Made by a program: the position numbers and the translations under genes. Under the pieces are notes generated by a model that had not been told where the DNA came from, made no database searches, and saw only the letters and a list, made by a program, of their open reading frames with translations. 64,000 nucleotides of DNA from Syntrophaceae bacterium (GTDB taxonomy: Bacteria > Desulfobacterota > Syntrophia > Syntrophales > Smithellaceae), in assembly GCA_018436925.1 (NCBI GenBank), contig JAHDKI010000020.1:89501-153500 (forward strand), given 5' to 3'. Below are positions 39,207 through 55,147 of the stretch, piece after piece (the stretch's first letter is position 1; every line of letters begins with the position of its first letter).

Positions 39207-40568
39207 ATGGATGAAAACAGCAAGGGCCGTGAACACTGGGCGACGCGCGCCGGATTTGTTCTGGCGGCCGCCGGGTCGGCCATCGGACTGGGCAATATCT
39301 GGCGCTTTCCCTACATGACGGGAGAACACGGCGGAGCCGCCTTTATCGTCATCTACCTGATTGCCATCCTGCTTCTGGGCTATCCGCTGATCGTCAACGA
39401 AATCATTTTAGGCCGGGCCTCGCAGCGCGATCCCGTGGGCGCCTTCAGGGCTCTGGCGCCGAACAGTCCCTGGTGGCTCGTGGGCGGTTTGGCCGTGTTT
39501 ACGGGGTTTATCATTCTGTCGTACTACGCGGTGGTTGCCGGCTGGTCGCTGGCCTATGTTTACAAGGTGGTCATCGCCACCCAATCGCCGGGAATCGATC
39601 ATGCGAGCGTATTTACCCATCACATCACCAGCGTGTGGGAGCCGATCGCCTGGCAGGCCCTGTTTATGGCGCTGACGGTGGGCATTATCGCCGCAGGCGT
39701 CGTCAAAGGCATTCAGCGATGGGTGACCATTCTCATGCCGATTCTGTTTGTGCTTTTAATCATTCTCATCATCCGGTCCGTGACCCTTCCCGGCGCGGGC
39801 GCCGGTCTTGCCTACTATCTCAAGCCCGACTTCAGCGAAGTGACCGGTCGCACCCTTCTGGGGGCGATTTCCCAGGCCTTCTTTTCACTAAGCCTGGGGA
39901 TGGGCGCGCTCATCACTTATGGAAGCTACCTCAACAGCAAGGATGAAATTCCCGGAAACGCCGCTTATGTGGTGGGGCTCGACACGCTCGTCGCCCTTTT
40001 GGCCGGACTGGCTTTGTTTCCCGCCATCTTCGCTTTGGGATTCGAGCCCGGCGCGGGGCCGGGGCTGGTGTTCATCACGCTGCCCGCCGTTTTCGCCCAG
40101 ATGCCGTTGGGCGGCATTTTCGGCGTGCTGTTTTTTTTCCTTTTGGGGATTGCCGCCCTGACGTCCGCCATTTCCCTTCTGGAAGTGGTAACCGCCTGGC
40201 TGATTGACGAAAAAGGCTGGCGCCGCAGAAACGCCGCCATCTTCATGGGCCTGCTCATCTTTATCGTCGGGCTTCCGGCCACGCTGGGCTACAGCGTGTT
40301 TAAGGATTTTTCGTTTCCCGCCCTGGGGACGGATCTGCTTGACACCTACGACTGGTTTGCCAACAGCATTCTGCTGCCTTTGGGCGGCATCCTGTCGGCC
40401 ATCTTCGCGGGATATATCTGGGGAATTAAAAACGCCGTGCACGAAGCCAATAAAGGCGGCGCCTTTTTCAGGCTGGGAAGAGGGTGGGCGTTTTTGATCC
40501 GCTATATCGTGCCTGTGCTGATTGTCATCATTATGGCCGTGGGCATCTACGATTCGTTTTTCAAATAA
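39207..40568 (+). CDS. Sodium-dependent transporter, NSS/SNF family
   Basis: A 453-residue neurotransmitter:sodium symporter with about eleven to twelve membrane segments. The family signature GSAIGLGNIWRFPY in TM1 is present, with the unwound TM6 region (SLSLGMGALITYGSY) that binds substrate and sodium. Bacterial relatives import amino acids. The ATG at 39207 is chosen because GAGGAA lies seven bases upstream; ATG 39183 has no ribosome site. It has its own consensus promoter and is not part of the kinase operon. Confidence 0.93.
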   Translation: MDENSKGREHWATRAGFVLAAAGSAIGLGNIWRFPYMTGEHGGAAFIVIYLIAILLLGYPLIVNEIILGRASQRDPVGAFRALAPNSPWWLVGGLAVFTGFIILSYYAVVAGWSLAYVYKVVIATQSPGIDHASVFTHHITSVWEPIAWQALFMALTVGIIAAGVVKGIQRWVTILMPILFVLLIILIIRSVTLPGAGAGLAYYLKPDFSEVTGRTLLGAISQAFFSLSLGMGALITYGSYLNSKDEIPGNAAYVVGLDTLVALLAGLALFPAIFALGFEPGAGPGLVFITLPAVFAQMPLGGIFGVLFFFLLGIAALTSAISLLEVVTAWLIDEKGWRRRNAAIFMGLLIFIVGLPATLGYSVFKDFSFPALGTDLLDTYDWFANSILLPLGGILSAIFAGYIWGIKNAVHEANKGGAFFRLGRGWAFLIRYIVPVLIVIIMAVGIYDSFFK

Positions 40569-40877
40569 TCATCCTGCTGACGGATAAAGACGGGGTGCGA
40601 TTATCCACCCTTGCCCCCTCCAAAAGGGGACATAAAAAGCGTTCAAAAAAAATTTAGACATTAAACTTTGAACTTGAAACTTGAAACTTTAAACCTGAAA
40701 CCTGAAACCTGAAACTTTAAACCTGAAACCTGAAACTTTAAACTTGAAACTTTAAACTTGAAACGTGAAACTTTAAACGTGCAACTTGAAACTCAGATCC
40801 CTCTGATCTCTGATCTCTGATTTCTGATCTCTGGTCTCCAATCTCCAATCTCCGATTTCTGCGTGCTGACTTCTGGC
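40569..40877. repeat. Heptanucleotide repeat block 1, with a 58-bp leader shared with block 3
   Basis: No gene. From about 40626 a leader GGGGACATAAAAAGCG runs into heptamer units of the form TTGAAAC, TTTAAAC, CTGAAAC, GTGAAAC (about 40660-40790). A second heptamer series follows, based on TCTGATC and TCCAATC (about 40796-40858). The leader and first units are identical over about 58 bases to 44469-44526. The peptide readings of this tract (SLKFQVSS and similar) are not genes. Confidence 0.85.
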
Positions 40878-42179
40878 CTATTTCATCATCCTGTGGCTGG
40901 CGGCAATCTTTTGAGCAAGCTCGGCGGGAACCTCCGCATCGGCGGCGAACGTTGGCCATTGTGACACCGTGTCGATCACCTGGTCGAGAATTTCCGACGC
41001 GCCTTTAATGCCGAACTGTCCGGAGACGGAAAGAAGATCCTCCCGGGTGAAATCATCCCTTTTGCCGCCGATGCTCATCTGGTGGCGGTTGGTCCACAGT
41101 CCCGACGGATTATAGGCCCAGACCACGTCAAAAGCCGGGGAAAGGCGCCAGGCGCCGTTTTGGTCCATCAGAAAGGCGATATTGCGAGTGTGGTCGTCCT
41201 GATTGCGCGCCGCGACATTGAAGGCCATGCGCCGAAACATCTCCTGCAGCGCCGGGTGCCCCAGGTTCAACTGCTGAATAACCGCCATCGCCTGCTCATA
41301 GCCGTATTCCCCGGCGGCGTTGAAATCGTAATGCGCCAGCGCGCAAAGCGACTGCATATGAACTTTTTCACCCGCGTCGCTCCGGTCGAACCGCCGCGTC
41401 ATGAAATGCGCCCGGCCGCCTTCTTCAAGCAGGCGGCACGGCATCATCGAAATTCCCGCCGCCTGCGCCATTTTGGAATAGGCGTATTCTACGCGGCCGA
41501 AACCCTGCGGATCCCCCAGCGCCTCGTCGTTCACACCGTCGAATTTCAAAATCCAGTGCTCGAAGCCCTCGGGCGCGGAAATCTGACCGGAGAGCATTTC
41601 CTGAGTTCGCGGATTCCAGGCGATCACCGCCTTGGCGCGGTTGCCGCCGGCGGAGGTGCCCACGCGGATGATCGTGTTGAGCGCCTGCGCTTTGGCGCCT
41701 TTGAGGTTTACCGCCCAGTGGGTGCGGTGCTGAAGAATGTCCGAGGCCAGCTGTGTGAGCTCGGCAACCTCGATGGGAACGGCCTTGCGGGCCTGCGGCC
41801 CGAGCGCCGGTTTGAACTCCAGCGCGCCCATGCCGCGCGAGCCCATATAGCACAGACGCTCGACCGGAGAGAAGTCTGCGGCGGAACGGCCCTGTCGCGC
41901 GAGCCACACGTCGATAATGCGATTGCCGAACCGATCGGGCAAAACATCCGCCAGAAGGCCAGGCAGGCCATGAAACGTATCTGGGTTCAGATTAGGGAAA
42001 GAGAAAATGCCGGATTGCAGCGGAAGGGCAATCGGAGAAACTTGCAGGTTCCTGCGGATGAATGCCGGATCATATTCGAAGCGGGCCAGTCTGCGGTCGT
42101 CATCCCAGGCCACTGCGCCCACCTCGCGGCCCCAAAGCATCACCATCGCCACCTGAACTTTTTTTGAAAGCTTTGCCAT
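40878..42179 (-). CDS. hipA: HipA-family serine/threonine kinase toxin
   Basis: A 433-residue HipA-type kinase. The catalytic region NQDDHTRN near residue 340 and the metal-binding SPAFDV are present, as are the N-terminal GLPGLLADVLPD block and the activation region around GTSAGGNRAK. HipA phosphorylates a cellular target (glutamyl-tRNA synthetase in E. coli) and causes dormancy; HipB binds and represses it. Unusually, it is separated from the hipB gene by 180 bases filled with a 22-unit heptamer array. It lacks a clear ribosome site before the ATG, which directly follows the repeat tract. Confidence 0.9.
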   Translation of the reverse strand: MAKLSKKVQVAMVMLWGREVGAVAWDDDRRLARFEYDPAFIRRNLQVSPIALPLQSGIFSFPNLNPDTFHGLPGLLADVLPDRFGNRIIDVWLARQGRSAADFSPVERLCYMGSRGMGALEFKPALGPQARKAVPIEVAELTQLASDILQHRTHWAVNLKGAKAQALNTIIRVGTSAGGNRAKAVIAWNPRTQEMLSGQISAPEGFEHWILKFDGVNDEALGDPQGFGRVEYAYSKMAQAAGISMMPCRLLEEGGRAHFMTRRFDRSDAGEKVHMQSLCALAHYDFNAAGEYGYEQAMAVIQQLNLGHPALQEMFRRMAFNVAARNQDDHTRNIAFLMDQNGAWRLSPAFDVVWAYNPSGLWTNRHQMSIGGKRDDFTREDLLSVSGQFGIKGASEILDQVIDTVSQWPTFAADAEVPAELAQKIAASHRMMK

Positions 42180-42196
42180 TACGTCTCTTTCTCTTG

Positions 42197-42350
42197 CCTT
42201 GATCCTTGCTCCTTGGACCTTGGACCTTGGACCTTGGCCCTTGATCCTTGACCCTTGACCCTTGACCCTTGACCCTTGACCCTTGATCCTTGCTCCTTGG
42301 ACCTTGGACCTTGGTCCTTGATCCTTGATCCTTGCTCCTTGCTCCTTGGA
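42197..42350. repeat. 22-unit heptanucleotide array between hipB and hipA
   Basis: Twenty-two consecutive 7-base units of the form CCTTGNN fill the space between hipB and hipA: CCTTGAC, CCTTGGA, CCTTGAT, CCTTGCT and a few variants. The series CCTTGAT-CCTTGCT-CCTTGGA recurs near both ends and the middle, which suggests expansion by slippage or recombination. It has no start codon or gene of its own. Confidence 0.95.
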
Positions 42351-42359
42351 CCTTTCCCC

Positions 42360-42677
42360 TTAATCCTTTCCCTTTGTCCTCTTTCCCGTCGCGCGTTTGC
42401 GCTCCTGACCTTTGAGTTTTGCCAATTGCAAGGGGCTGACGCCCGGCTGTGGCAGAAAACTCTCCAGGGCGTCCAGCTTGCCCAGAATGCGCAGAACCCG
42501 GATAAGGCTGGCCAGGGTAAAGACCTCGCCCGATTCCATTCTCTGAAGCGTTTTTCGCGCGATTCCGGCCTGTTTTGCCAGCACAGCCTGCTCCATGTTC
42601 CGGTTGAGGCGCTCCTGCGCTAGACGCTGCCCGATTTCAGACAGAATGGCCTGGTCGCTCATCTTGGTCAAATCCAT
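42360..42677 (-). CDS. hipB: HipB-like antitoxin, helix-turn-helix regulator
   Basis: A protein of about 105 residues with an XRE-type helix-turn-helix (QAVLAKQAGIARKTLQRMESG) and a long basic C-terminal tail (KGQERKRATGKRTKGKD). It is the expected DNA-binding antitoxin of hipA and should repress the promoter. The ATG at 42677 is chosen for AAGGCGG upstream; MSDQAI at 42662 is an alternative. It is the first gene of the pair on the minus strand, with an AT-rich region holding inverted repeats upstream. The pair is split by the heptamer array. Confidence 0.85.
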   Translation of the reverse strand: MDLTKMSDQAILSEIGQRLAQERLNRNMEQAVLAKQAGIARKTLQRMESGEVFTLASLIRVLRILGKLDALESFLPQPGVSPLQLAKLKGQERKRATGKRTKGKD

Positions 42678-43162
42678 ATCCGCCGCCTTTTTTCTTGGTG
42701 AAGCGATCATAGCAGCATACGAAATTATATTCAAGTATAAAGATTAATAAATTACTCATAATATAGATATATTTACTAATAAGAGTAATTAATTACACAT
42801 AAAAATATTAATAATCTTATGGGATGAACGAGGGGTGGGGAATGAAAATCCGCATAATTATGATATTTCGAGGATTATGGTTCCTTTTAACGTGCAGAGG
42901 GCGAATCGAGACGTTTAAGTATGAGATTGGATTCTAAGCTTATCGGTGATTGGGTCATTAGGTCGCTAGTGTTTGCTGTGAACCGTCAACCGGCCAACTT
43001 GAAACTTTAAACTTTAAACGTTCAACTTGAAACTCAGATTCTTCTGACTTCCGACTTCTGCCCTCAGAATTCCGCCCCCAAGCCATAAACCATAAACTGA
43101 TAAGTGTCTTAATCGAAATTCCTTCGACGATGATTCGAAAAAGGAGGGAATAAAATGAAAAT
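42678..43162. other. Intergenic region: AT-rich hipB promoter region and repeat block 2
   Basis: Upstream of hipB lies an AT-rich stretch (42720-42822) with an 8-bp inverted repeat AATTACTC/GAGTAATT (42750-42757 and 42783-42790) inside an outer pair AAGATTAAT and ATTAATAATCTT, a candidate HipB operator and promoter. From about 42989 to 43070 is repeat block 2: a short run of TTGAAAC and TTTAAAC heptamers followed by a CTGACTTC-like tail. No gene is seen. Confidence 0.55.
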
Positions 43163-43206
43163 GCACTGAAAAATAGTCTTGACTATATTTCAGTGCTATG
43201 CACAAT
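43163..43206 (+). promoter_or_regulatory. 16-bp inverted repeat overlapping the promoter of the AAA ATPase
   Basis: GCACTGAAAAATAGTC (43163-43178) and GACTATATTTCAGTGC (43181-43196) are near-perfect inverted repeats with one mismatch and a 2-base centre. TTGACT (43179-43184) within it and CACAAT (43201-43206) form a -35/-10 pair with a 16-base spacer. Transcription would start close to the ATG at 43213, so the message may be leaderless and the palindrome an operator. Confidence 0.6.
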
Positions 43207-43212
43207 GGTCGC

Positions 43213-44433
43213 ATGGAAAAAAGAACCCCGTACATCAAGGTGTGGAAAGAATTATCGGCTGAAAAAGCCATGATATTTCTTGCCGGCCCCCGACAGGCAG
43301 GGAAGACGACGCTGGCAAAACTGGTTGCAGAGTCGTTTTCAAACCAGTTGTACTGGAACTGGGACATCCCGGATCACAGAAGAATGTTTCTGGAAAATCC
43401 TTCTTTCTTCACGGCTGTTTCCAGGCGGGATTCCACCAGGCCGTTTATCATCTTCGATGAAATCCACAAATTTCGAGACTGGAAAAACTACCTCAAAGGC
43501 GTTTACGATCAGTTTAGCGGTGAATATCAATTTCTGGTCTCAGGCAGCGGGCGACTTGATCTCTATCAGAAAGGGGGCGATTCCCTGGCCGGGCGCTATT
43601 TCCTGTTTCATCTCTTTCCCTTTACAATGGCCGAAATCAGTGACACCAAACGTTCTTATTCCGAGTTCATAGCAAATCCGCTGGATATCAATATGAAAGA
43701 CTCTAAAAAAAGAGAAGAAAACTGGCGGCAGCTTTCAGATCTGTCCGGATTTCCGGAACCTTTCCTTTCCGGCCGGAAAACAACGTACCGGCGCTGGTCG
43801 AACACCTATTCCCGGCAGTTGATCAGAGAAGACATTCTCGATCTGACAGAAATTAAGTCTGTTCAGGACGTAGAAACCCTCTATACTCTGCTGCCCTCAA
43901 AAATCGGCAGCCCGCTTTCTGCTGTGTCTCTTGCCGAAACCCTCAGGGTTTCATACAACACAGTGAAAAACTGGCTCGACGTTTTAGAGCGCTTCTACCT
44001 TGCTTTCAGCATTCCAACCTGGACGGGGAAGATCGCCCGCGCAATTCAGAAAGAGAAGAAATATTATCTTTGGGATTACAGCCGAATTGAAAACCAAGCG
44101 GCGCGATTTGAAAACATGGTTGCCTGCGATCTATGGCGCGCGGTAACGCTTTGGACCGATCTGGGTATGGGGAACTTTTCGCTGCACTTCATCAAAGACA
44201 AAGAAAAACGGGAAGTGGATTTTCTTATCGCCAAAGACGGAAAACCCGCTTTGCTCGTTGAAACAAAATTATCGGAAAAGCAGCCGGCCAAAGCACTCAT
44301 TGCCTTTCAAAACATGCTGGGCGTGCCGGCGGTTCAACTCAATGATACCGGAGATTCATTTCAGATGATTCCAAACGGGCAGGCACGCATCCTTGTCGCC
44401 CCGGCCTACCACTGGCTTGCAGAATTGCCTTAA
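43213..44433 (+). CDS. AAA ATPase with DUF4143 domain
   Basis: A 406-residue ATPase of the AAA_14/DUF4143 family. Walker A is AGPRQAGKTTL near residue 24, Walker B FIIFDEIHK near 80, and sensor VSGSGRLD near 110. The C-terminal DUF4143 region ends with a nuclease-like EVDFLIAKDGKPALLVETKLS that resembles a PD-(D/E)xK fold (D, then ExK). The role of the family is unclear; it is common in mobile and defence-rich regions. The start could be ATG 43198 or 43213; the promoter spacing favours 43213. It is bracketed by heptamer repeat blocks 2 and 3. Confidence 0.85.
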   Translation: MEKRTPYIKVWKELSAEKAMIFLAGPRQAGKTTLAKLVAESFSNQLYWNWDIPDHRRMFLENPSFFTAVSRRDSTRPFIIFDEIHKFRDWKNYLKGVYDQFSGEYQFLVSGSGRLDLYQKGGDSLAGRYFLFHLFPFTMAEISDTKRSYSEFIANPLDINMKDSKKREENWRQLSDLSGFPEPFLSGRKTTYRRWSNTYSRQLIREDILDLTEIKSVQDVETLYTLLPSKIGSPLSAVSLAETLRVSYNTVKNWLDVLERFYLAFSIPTWTGKIARAIQKEKKYYLWDYSRIENQAARFENMVACDLWRAVTLWTDLGMGNFSLHFIKDKEKREVDFLIAKDGKPALLVETKLSEKQPAKALIAFQNMLGVPAVQLNDTGDSFQMIPNGQARILVAPAYHWLAELP

Positions 44434-44666
44434 AAGATAATCCTCCCCCCGCCCCCCCCCCTCCAAAGGGGGACATAAAAAGCGTTCAAAAAAAATTTAG
44501 ACATTAAACTTTGAACTTGAAACTTAAAACTTTAAACCTGAAACTTTAGACATGAAACTTTAAACCTGAAACCTGAAACCTGAAACTTGAAACTTTAAAC
44601 TTGAAACTTGAAACGTTCAACTTGAAACTCAGATCCTTCTGCCCTCTGATCTTTCCCATCATTTCT
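44434..44666. repeat. Heptanucleotide repeat block 3, with a copy of the 58-bp leader
   Basis: After the ATPase stop comes a C-rich tract, then the same GGGGACATAAAAAGCG leader as in block 1. Heptamers TTGAAAC, TTTAAAC and CTGAAAC follow (about 44500-44628), then a short CTGATC-like tail. About 58 bases at 44469-44526 are identical to 40626-40683. The tract lies directly beyond the stop of the beta-helix lipoprotein gene on the other strand. Confidence 0.85.
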
Positions 44667-46289
44667 CTAATCCAGCGTGTATCCGGTCCGTCCGGCCATA
44701 TCCGGATTGCACGAGCCGCTTCCGGCCAATGGATGCGGGCAGGTGTATTTTGTGTATCCCGGGCGTGGCGTGTCCGAAATAAAATCCCGTCCATCAACGA
44801 CGTGAAACTGCTGCCAATTTGTGCCTGTGGGGCAGGCGCCGGCATAGGAACCCGTGCAGCAGGAATAGGGAACCCCCGCCGCTGTGCACGCCATATTGTC
44901 GCTGTTGTTGTGAAGGTAGAAACGGTTGGGATACATGGTGTCCGTGCTGCATGTACTGCCCGGGCATTGTGAATCGGAGGTACAGGTGTCATATTTATTC
45001 GAACCGCCCAGGCAGTTTCGACCTGATTGATTATTCCAGGCATAAAGCGGATCAACCTCCTGCGAATGACCGCTGCCTAGAGTGCCGGTCATCGTGCCGG
45101 CGCCTGTCTGATCCAGGCATCGGTAACCGTCAACGGCGTTTCCGTGCGCGGCATTGTTCACATTCGTATCGTAAACACTCGATCCGTTGCAATCGCCGAA
45201 ACCGTCCTGCGAACCGATGCAGTTGCCGATTCCGGGGCCGGTGCAGCAGACGGCAGGCGCGCCCGCGCCCGTGCATTGGGAATTCTGCGTGCAGCCATTG
45301 TCAAACCAGCTTCGGCGGTTGTCCAGCACAACCGCCCCCCGTTCCGGCAGCCATTGCGACCACGGTCCTGATACAACATTGCCGGTAATCACATGCGAGC
45401 CGCCGCGCAGCGATAAATAGGATGTGAAAGTATTGCTCACGGACCGGTTAAAACGATTGTTGTAAATTTCATAAGAACGGGTTGCGCGAACGGATTTTTG
45501 GCAGGCCGAGTGAGCCATAATGTAGGCATCGTTAAACGTGTTGTAGCGGATGACGGCGCGAGCGCCGTTGTTGGAGTCCACACTGTTGTGGAAAACACCG
45601 GCGACGTCGGCCATCAGAAATGTGTTGTTTTCCAGAAAAATGGCGTTGGCCGTTCCCCATTGCGGCGCGCTGGTCCAGGAGTGATGTGCCGCCGTGCCGC
45701 CGCCTGCAAATCCGATCTGGCAATAGTTGAAAACGTTTTGATCGATCAGACCGAAAAGCGTCCATGTGCCGACATTCGACAGAGTTGCCACCGATGTAAT
45801 ATCGGCGTAATCCGTTCCCTGAAAAACGTTATGATCGATTCGCCAGCCGCTGCCTGCGCCGCTGATCTGAAAAAGCCGTCCTTGCGGCGCGGAAAGCTTC
45901 AAACCGGAAAGTCTGAAGGGAAAAGCGCCCGTCGAAGATCCGGTGCTGACGTCAAACAGGGGCACGGTTCCGTTACCGCTGATCGTCGTTGTGTCAGGCC
46001 CATTGCCGATAATGCGGATTGCTTTGTTGACGGAAAGGGTCTTTGCGCGCCAATTGGCTTCGCCGGCCGTAATATTAATCGTATCGCCTGGAGAAGCTTG
46101 CGACACGCAGGATGCGACCGATTCGTAATCCGGCGTCGAGGTCCAGGCGGGGCTTGCGCCCGAACAAGACGGCGTATAGTCCGGCGACGATGGGAAAAAC
46201 CCGCCTGATTCGCCGCCCCCGCCGCCGCAACCATTCAGGGCCAATATGCCTAAAACCGCCCAAAGCAAAAATCTGCATGCCGAAGACAT
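44667..46289 (-). CDS. Right-handed beta-helix lipoprotein, family A
   Basis: A protein of about 540 residues with a lipoprotein signal (LNGC, then a run of glycines), so it should be attached to a membrane by lipid. The mature part opens PSCSGASPAWTSTPDYESV and holds parallel beta-helix turns (IRIIGNG, IDHNVFQG, ENNTFL, IYNNRFN). Several cysteine clusters (CCTGPGIGNC, CTSDSQCPGSTC) suggest disulfides and export. It ends with YTCPHPLAG and CNPDMAGRTGY, shared with the paralogue at 49973. It may bind or cut a polysaccharide; no catalytic motif was recognised. ATG 46289 has AGGAG nine bases upstream; ATG 46295 is only three bases from it. Confidence 0.8.
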   Translation of the reverse strand: MSSACRFLLWAVLGILALNGCGGGGGESGGFFPSSPDYTPSCSGASPAWTSTPDYESVASCVSQASPGDTINITAGEANWRAKTLSVNKAIRIIGNGPDTTTISGNGTVPLFDVSTGSSTGAFPFRLSGLKLSAPQGRLFQISGAGSGWRIDHNVFQGTDYADITSVATLSNVGTWTLFGLIDQNVFNYCQIGFAGGGTAAHHSWTSAPQWGTANAIFLENNTFLMADVAGVFHNSVDSNNGARAVIRYNTFNDAYIMAHSACQKSVRATRSYEIYNNRFNRSVSNTFTSYLSLRGGSHVITGNVVSGPWSQWLPERGAVVLDNRRSWFDNGCTQNSQCTGAGAPAVCCTGPGIGNCIGSQDGFGDCNGSSVYDTNVNNAAHGNAVDGYRCLDQTGAGTMTGTLGSGHSQEVDPLYAWNNQSGRNCLGGSNKYDTCTSDSQCPGSTCSTDTMYPNRFYLHNNSDNMACTAAGVPYSCCTGSYAGACPTGTNWQQFHVVDGRDFISDTPRPGYTKYTCPHPLAGSGSCNPDMAGRTGYTLD

Positions 46290-48449: not shown

Positions 48450-48628
48450 TTGACTTCTGACTTCTGACTTCTGCCCTATGGCCTCTGAGCTATGCACTTA
48501 ATCGGCCAACTGCTAACTGCCAACTTGAAACTTTAAACCTGAAACGTGAAACTTTAAACCTGAAACGTGAAACTTTAAACGTGAAACTTTAAACCTGAAA
48601 CTTGAAACCTGAAACGTGAAACTTAATC
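48450..48628. repeat. Heptanucleotide repeat block 4
   Basis: Part of the 363-base gap 48359-48721. It begins with TGACTTC heptamers (about 48450-48472), passes through a CTGCCC-rich link, and continues with a long run of TTGAAAC, TTTAAAC, CTGAAAC and GTGAAAC units (about 48522-48625). It ends 17 bases before the promoter of the next gene. Confidence 0.85.
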
Positions 48629-49972: not shown

Positions 49973-51691
49973 TCACAAGTTGTAACCGCTTGTGCCGGCT
50001 ACATCAGGGCTGCAAGTTCCGGTTAATCCGGCCAGCGGATGCGGGCAGGTGTAAGGTTCAAAGTGTTTGGTCCATGTATTGGTTGCGGTGCATTTATATA
50101 AAGTTCCCAGGGGGCCGTCATTCGTTGCGAAATAAGCCGTGTTCACCGTACAGGTTGCGGGTCTGGCGGATAGCAGGCCTCGGCCGACGCCGGACGTGCT
50201 GTCAAAGGCGCTTGTGAAATTGTAATAGTCACGATTGGCCTTGACGTGATTCTGCGAATCATTAATGACATGAAACGGCACTTCGGTTGTTCCGTCTGCC
50301 CGCTTGTTGTTCCAGGCATAAGCCGGCATCAGGGATTGCTGAGATGGCCGCCCCAGAATATACCCGTTTCCTGATTTCGGGCCCGTGTAATTAAGGTCGA
50401 TATCAATGGTATCAGAACCGACCGACAGAATAGGAAACGTACCTCCGGAAAATCCTTCGCCACAGCCGGATAAGCCGGATGAACTAACGATCGTGGCTTT
50501 ATTCTCGGTGGATAAATCATGACCGGTTGCCGTGAGACGGACTTTCCCTGCGCTGTTATTCGTGCAGGACTCGATCGTGAAAGTCCGCCAGTGCGCCGTA
50601 TCGTCACCCCGGCCGATCTGATCGCGGCAGGGATAACCAGCCTCGTCGCCCACACCTTCATTTCCATCCCAGTAAGAGGTTCCATCGCATTTTCCGCTGA
50701 AATCGGCCGTCGCGTAGCAGCGCACATTATCCAGTGCGATGCCGTAATTGGTCCAGTTGCCTAGGATGTTGTTGTTAAATACCAGGCCCGTGCCGGCCCG
50801 GATGCGGAACGGATAATAATGCCCAGCTCCTTGGTTGTCGATAATATTATTATAAACCTCCCATCTTTGAACCGCCCGGTTGACCCACTGGACGGAATGC
50901 GCCTCGATATAGAGAGCCGAGTTGCTCTGAGTGGTGCCAGAAGTGATAACGTCGTTATAGCGGAAAACGTAGCGTATGCCATAATTGCCGTCGATGACGT
51001 TGGCCGTGCCGTTGTTTGTTCGATTGAAAGAATTTCCTTCAAAAAACACAATTCCGTCTTCGCTTCCCATCGTTTGCGCTTCCGCCCAGACAGCGCTTTG
51101 CGAATTCATTCCTGTGCCGCCACCCGTTACAAAAACTGAGGTATTTATAAATCTGCATGAATGAACCACACCGGTCGGGTGAGCGCCGGAGCGGTTGACA
51201 ACAAGAGCGCGTGTTGACGCCTCGGTTGTTGTAAACTTCACGTGTTCCACAGCAAAACCCTGGCCATCGACGATTATGACGCCCGATGTTGCATCCACCG
51301 TCAGATCAGCAAATCGCGAGCCACCCGTTCCGAGGTGAATCACATGCGTCATCCAACTGTCCGGCAGACTGGTGCGGATGATTGTTTCATCAATACCCGC
51401 GCCGACGATAGACAATTGCTTTGCCCCGAGCGAAATTCGCTCGCGCCAAGTGGCCCGACCCGCCAGAATATGAATGGTGTCGCCGGAAGAAGCCTGAGAA
51501 ACGCAGGATGCCACTGATTCGTAATCCGGCGTGGAAGTCCAAGATGGGCTTGCGCCGGTGCAGGAAGGTGTGAAACCGGGTGACGATGCCGGGACAAACC
51601 CGCCGGAATCGCAACCGCCCCCGCAACTCAGAAAAAAAGCACTTAGGCAAGTCAAAGAAAGCAACCCGAATGTCCTTTTCAAGGATATCAT
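49973..51691 (-). CDS. Right-handed beta-helix lipoprotein, family A paralogue
   Basis: A 572-residue paralogue of the protein at 44667: lipobox FLSC, glycine/cysteine-rich start, PSCTGASPSWTSTPDYESV, a parallel beta-helix with turns like RFADLTVDA, FRYNDVI and VYNNIIDN, and the C-terminal YTCPHPLAG with CSPDVAGTSGY. It is expected to be lipid-anchored and exposed. GGAGGG precedes the ATG. A likely promoter, TTGACA at 51780-51775 with a weak -10 TAGGGT at 51757-51752, lies upstream. Polysaccharide binding or lyase activity is possible but no catalytic residues can be assigned. Confidence 0.8.
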   Translation of the reverse strand: MISLKRTFGLLSLTCLSAFFLSCGGGCDSGGFVPASSPGFTPSCTGASPSWTSTPDYESVASCVSQASSGDTIHILAGRATWRERISLGAKQLSIVGAGIDETIIRTSLPDSWMTHVIHLGTGGSRFADLTVDATSGVIIVDGQGFAVEHVKFTTTEASTRALVVNRSGAHPTGVVHSCRFINTSVFVTGGGTGMNSQSAVWAEAQTMGSEDGIVFFEGNSFNRTNNGTANVIDGNYGIRYVFRYNDVITSGTTQSNSALYIEAHSVQWVNRAVQRWEVYNNIIDNQGAGHYYPFRIRAGTGLVFNNNILGNWTNYGIALDNVRCYATADFSGKCDGTSYWDGNEGVGDEAGYPCRDQIGRGDDTAHWRTFTIESCTNNSAGKVRLTATGHDLSTENKATIVSSSGLSGCGEGFSGGTFPILSVGSDTIDIDLNYTGPKSGNGYILGRPSQQSLMPAYAWNNKRADGTTEVPFHVINDSQNHVKANRDYYNFTSAFDSTSGVGRGLLSARPATCTVNTAYFATNDGPLGTLYKCTATNTWTKHFEPYTCPHPLAGLTGTCSPDVAGTSGYNL

Positions 51692-55100: not shown

Positions 55101-55147
55101 GATAGTTGATAGTGGATAGTTGATAGTTCATAGGTGATAGATGATGG
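55101..55147. repeat. Heptanucleotide repeat block 5
   Basis: Six heptamer units after the beta-helix gene stop: GATAGTT, GATAGTG, GATAGTT, GATAGTT, CATAGGT, GATAGAT. The consensus differs from the other blocks but the period of seven is the same. Confidence 0.8.

Follow-up and report, generated by a model that had tools for sequence, protein, structure and literature searches.

Within the 64,000-nt window (the whole stretch of DNA analyzed here), the minus strand carries a gene for a HipA-family kinase toxin (hipA; 433 aa; positions 40878–42179) preceded by a gene for a helix-turn-helix (HTH) antitoxin (hipB; 42360–42677). HipA combines an N-terminal Couple_hipA domain (Pfam, 1.7e-19) with a HipA_C domain (3.2e-52), which is the architecture of a full-length HipA, and alignment with Syntrophales orthologs (72% identical) shows that the kinase-type motif NQDDHTRN and SPAFD are retained. 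The open frame of hipB reaches 42734, and the ATG at 42677 is the one that matches homologs; the resulting 105-aa protein scored above the cut-off with Pfam HTH_3 (4.6e-07) and below it with NCBIfam TIGR03070 (couple_hipB), and is 48–53% identical to the HipB of orthologous operons. An AT-rich region upstream of hipB contains a 19-nt inverted repeat (42745–42795) that is a candidate HipB operator. Based on domain content and gene order, with the HTH gene upstream, the locus is predicted to be a HipBA-type (type II) toxin–antitoxin operon, which bears out the gene assignments of an earlier note made on this DNA.

The two genes are separated by a spacer of 180 nt (42180–42359), of which 154 nt (42197–42350) consist of 22 perfect heptamers that read CCTTGNN on the plus strand and NNCAAGG on the coding strand, exactly as the earlier note had described (tandem-repeat row and unit listing). 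The array continues in degenerate form across the hipB stop codon and the last hipB codons (42351–42385), with three to five further units discernible up to about 42385 (CCTTTCC, CCTTAAT, CCTTTCC, CTTTGTC, and CTCTTTC; a period-21 TRF row extends to 42368), and the hipB stop codon itself (TAA; 42360–42362) lies within one such unit, TAAGGGG on the coding strand. Chance does not account for the array, since the reversed pattern has no match in the 3.5-Mb genome vs. 55 overlapping matches of the real CCTTGNN pattern. Neighboring units of the hip array are identical in 9 of 21 cases, against 3.7 expected (P = 0.005), an excess that reads as a mark of local unit duplication; the longest run of identical units is at most five.

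Because NNCAAGG can contain no stop codon, the spacer is stop-free in every coding-strand frame; it also lacks an in-frame alternative start codon. As the spacer is in addition a multiple of three, no stop interrupts the hipA frame over the 60 codons ahead of its start, as far back as the hipB TAA, which is the sole in-frame separator of the two genes. The earlier statement that an in-frame fusion is impossible with a period of seven thus needs correction, although its companion, that such a period can change the spacing of the genes, holds: gain or loss of units cannot shift either gene out of frame and alters spacing only.

A junction of this length is exceptional. Across many phyla, 86 homologous hipBA loci (a few of them entered twice, from two collections) have a gap between hipB and hipA of -74 to +24 nt with a median of -7, and 84 of the 86 values lie between -40 and +20, in agreement with the expectation of the earlier note that the two genes normally adjoin or overlap. 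Adjacency is usual in HipBA operons rather than strictly defining, and the operon described here shares with typical ones the hipB–hipA order, the HTH antitoxin, and the full-length HipA; it differs in the gap. Its three nearest orthologs, the first to be examined, have gaps of 3–6 nt, as do all six orthologs (72–77% identical) found in other genomes among 155 of the order. These 155 genomes yielded no other with this hipBA array, and a plasmid search for a match to the array region, as a sign of mobile spread, returned none. Given the range in the 86 loci, the array is an insertion private to this lineage.

The CCTTGNN repeat class is not specific to hipBA. A genome-wide pattern search located four CCTTGNN units in tandem at about a dozen other sites of the same genome, and eight out of 39 related genomes contain the same fourfold pattern, six of these eight being from the same genus. 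The array census combined genome-wide searches for the pattern with four contigs (622 kb) and further selected stretches; gene calls around the arrays simply took the longest ORF. From nine genomes, 49 arrays were oriented with CAAGG forward and their neighbors scored. Among the 26 arrays that have a sense left neighbor and a scorable right neighbor, 22 start no more than 9 nt from the stop codon of the upstream sense gene, where random placement within these gaps would give 6.1 (KS p = 4e-13), whereas arrays with an antisense left neighbor show at most a weak trend toward the stop (KS p = 0.05). In codirectional gaps CAAGG lies on the sense strand in 21 of 29 cases and on the other strand in eight. 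In many arrays the stop codon is included in the opening unit (TAAGGTT, TAGGTTC, TAGGGTC), and the hip array, with its overlap of the hipB TAA, is a further example. The gene that follows is convergent for five of the 26 sense-anchored arrays, and for several more the next start is 100–780 nt away; the arrays ahead of convergent genes disfavor an overlap of stop codon and Shine–Dalgarno (SD) sequence as the only seed of these arrays. This sense-strand placement behind stop codons is non-random and is not explained by neutral slippage.

The number of units at such junctions drifts over evolution, as seen at the stop codon of an orthologous 621-aa gene (15 loci, of which L222 and L224, read in the wrong frame, were left out of the count): five units are present in this genome, four and about eight in two other species, a degraded remnant in one more, and no array in nine. 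The supposition that the length of the array can change is thereby supported for arrays of this kind on an evolutionary scale. The class accordingly has the properties of dispersed bacterial heptamer repeats, namely a period of seven, many dispersed copies, a mainly non-coding location, and length variation between related genomes. The CAAGG core is nearly constant, with seven mismatches in 850 core positions (170 interior units, all arrays), a figure somewhat biased by the choice of arrays by their perfect units, while NN takes 15 forms. Such constancy exceeds what plain slippage with uniform mutation predicts and is the chief finding for which a neutral reading has no explanation; it hints at selection, or a homogenizing process, acting on CAAGG.

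Other heptamer families (AAACNTN, CTCTGAT, TGACTTC, and GATAGTT) occur near the operon and elsewhere. On the plus strand, array A (40614–40861), located 3′ of hipA, consists of a 49-nt leader followed by AAACYTK and then CTCTGAT heptamers; array C (42996–43060), between hipB and an ATPase gene, is a short AAACTTT/CTCAGAT composite copy; and array D (44457–44652) repeats A, leader included, in direct orientation, at 90% identity and with exactly one 7-nt unit fewer. The direct repeats (40614–40816 and 44457–44652; 49-nt unique leader plus AAACYTK) are found only here in the genome and bracket hipA–hipB together with the AAA_14/DUF4143 ATPase gene (43198–44433). Directly behind the upstream SNF symporter gene, ten related genomes have a different conserved gene in place of this segment, which may therefore be acquired or excisable. 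Immediately ahead of the ATPase start is a 16-nt inverted repeat (43163–43196; 94% complementary, 2-nt loop), a possible operator. A GATAGTT array (55101–55145) begins 12 nt past the stop of a 981-aa gene and thus has a different motif at a similar address. The CTCTGAT (40801–40861) and TGACTTC (48451–48473) arrays contain TGA-like units, as do AAACTTG and CCTTGAN, and these heptamer families may be related to one another. Separately, stretches within two large genes (46046–46222 and 51442–51624) are 76% identical, which suggests that the genes are paralogous.

An effect of the array through message structure, as had been proposed, finds no support in the order of its units. Compared with dinucleotide shuffles, the RNA of the array has a much stronger predicted fold (z = -5.5), but shuffling the unit order or the NN letters gives equal folding energies; the fold is thus a product of unit composition and gives no evidence of a selected RNA hairpin. 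An Rfam search of 40500–44700 returned no family. The signals for hipA translation differ from those of relatives. There, hipA starts right after the hipB stop, and an SD-like AAAGGAG or GAGGAGG lies in the hipB tail about 14–17 nt ahead of the hipA start; here, the sequence preceding the hipA ATG is AAGAGAAAGAGACGTA, a predicted weak ribosome site. From what is known of translational coupling, reinitiation across 180 nt is unlikely.

We consider it probable that expansion of a dispersed heptamer simple sequence repeat at the stop codon of hipB uncoupled the translation of hipA from that of hipB, without any dedicated switching function. The hip array is a member of a dispersed degenerate family, (CAAGGNN)n on the coding strand, in this Smithellaceae-like genus, whose arrays would arise and expand directly at stop codons. 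One of them would have arisen at the hipB stop in this lineage and grown, presumably by replication slippage, displacing hipA 180 nt downstream. The toxin gene would then no longer be translated by coupling to, or reinitiation from, hipB and would be left dependent on its own weak ribosome site; since reinitiation over this distance is unlikely and that site is weak, the array would lower or re-set the share of HipA, as a side effect. Of this account, the sequences show the repeat class, its position at stop codons, an insertion that sets the locus apart from all homologs, and the turnover of unit number between species. Overall, the array has more the look of a dispersed repeat that happened to settle in a toxin operon than of a switch built for persistence.

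An alternative, possible but unlikely, is that the array is a functional post-termination element, in which AAGG motifs pair with the anti-Shine–Dalgarno sequence, hold the 30S subunit after termination, and tune initiation of the next gene, such that the number of units in hipBA would set the toxin dose. The start of arrays at stop codons, the preference for the sense strand in codirectional gaps, and the near-invariant core with its free NN positions would all suit such an element, and the mRNA of the hip spacer contains 24 AAGG motifs at a period of seven, four of them AAGGAG. However, reinitiation makes no sense for the arrays that precede convergent genes or lie 100–780 nt from the next start, and presence at the same junction varies among species. 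Its genus-wide version, according to which (CAAGGNN)n arrays at stop codons generally handle ribosomes leaving the upstream gene through anti-SD pairing, and the number of units controls how much the next gene yields and hence the toxin:antitoxin ratio of hipBA, appears distinctly unlikely.

The earlier note proposed a phase-variable persistence switch, in which slippage alters the unit number within a population and hence the HipA:HipB ratio. We give this only a slender chance, well below that of a dispersed repeat. The turnover of units between species and between the paralogous arrays A and D is compatible with a switch, and heptamer arrays upstream of hmw1A and hmw2A in H. influenzae tune expression by unit number (PMC2651432); against this, phase variation was judged unlikely for comparable heptamers (Rehm et al., 2015; PMC4692102). 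A hip-specific switch is further unsupported because the same repeat class lies behind the stops of many unrelated genes in this and eight related genomes, including places that have no sense gene downstream for it to regulate. In addition, unit number can change the reading frame of neither gene, and the degenerate NN positions leave perfect runs so short that slippage should be limited.

Two further readings are weaker. The array could be a target or sponge for a CsrA-type RNA-binding protein acting on upstream mRNA stability or downstream translation; CsrA recognizes ACARGGAU, which CAAGGA resembles, and CAAGGA is present in roughly half of the hip spacer repeats (10 AAGGA motifs), but the base after CAAGG is A in just 45 of 170 interior units (T is the commonest), so that the GGA core is mostly missing and this role is very unlikely. 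Readthrough of the single TAA into a HipB–linker–HipA fusion, as the stop-free, in-frame 180 nt would allow, is scarcely credible, since a spacer is in frame by chance one time in three, its freedom from stops follows from the unit sequence, and no readthrough signal was identified.

Taken as a dispersed repeat that expanded behind hipB, the array breaks an otherwise nearly always tight junction in an operon where the protein ratio matters, and thereby provides a natural experiment on the requirement for translational coupling in hipBA. Heptamers of other bacteria invite comparison. Those of Xanthomonas and Nostoc (GGGNATC and GGGGA(C/T)T) are dispersed and intergenic, mostly between codirectional genes; on the coding strand, most of them overlap a stop codon or lie no more than 50 bp from one, and their lengths vary between species (Rehm et al., 2015; PMC4692102). 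CAAGGNN resembles them in its G-rich strand, its dispersal, its stop-proximal position in codirectional gaps, and its length variation between species, but its core, CAAGG, has GG rather than GGG, two positions are free, and arrays reach 22 units. The Xanthomonas and Nostoc heptamers form G-quadruplexes from GGG tracts and prefer four units (PMC4692102), whereas the CAAGG core has two G and the hip array 22 units. The recurrence of this placement at stop codons in unrelated heptamers suggests a general cause. The TAACTGA repeats of marine Beggiatoaceae likewise form many intergenic heptamer arrays, for which a translational role has been suggested (MacGregor, 2015; PMC4679880); however, these have invariant units just upstream of start codons, whereas CAAGGNN arrays have two degenerate positions and are anchored just behind stops. 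In Geobacter metallireducens, also a former deltaproteobacterium, short heptamer arrays are known as GGGACCG x4 and MTYCTGA x5 elements (PMC2700814), the latter resembling the CTCTGAT that flanks hipA, but these are defined elements of four or five units whose motif is not CAAGGNN. The hmw1A and hmw2A arrays of H. influenzae (PMC2651432) are similar in that the length between signal and gene can tune expression, and differ in consisting of identical TGAAAGA units in a promoter of surface adhesins, whereas the hip array is degenerate, lies within an operon, and belongs to a genome-wide class. Stop-proximal heptamers are therefore already known, and CAAGGNN of the Syntrophales is a new heptamer family among them, with strong stop-codon anchoring and, in hipBA, an unusual landing site.
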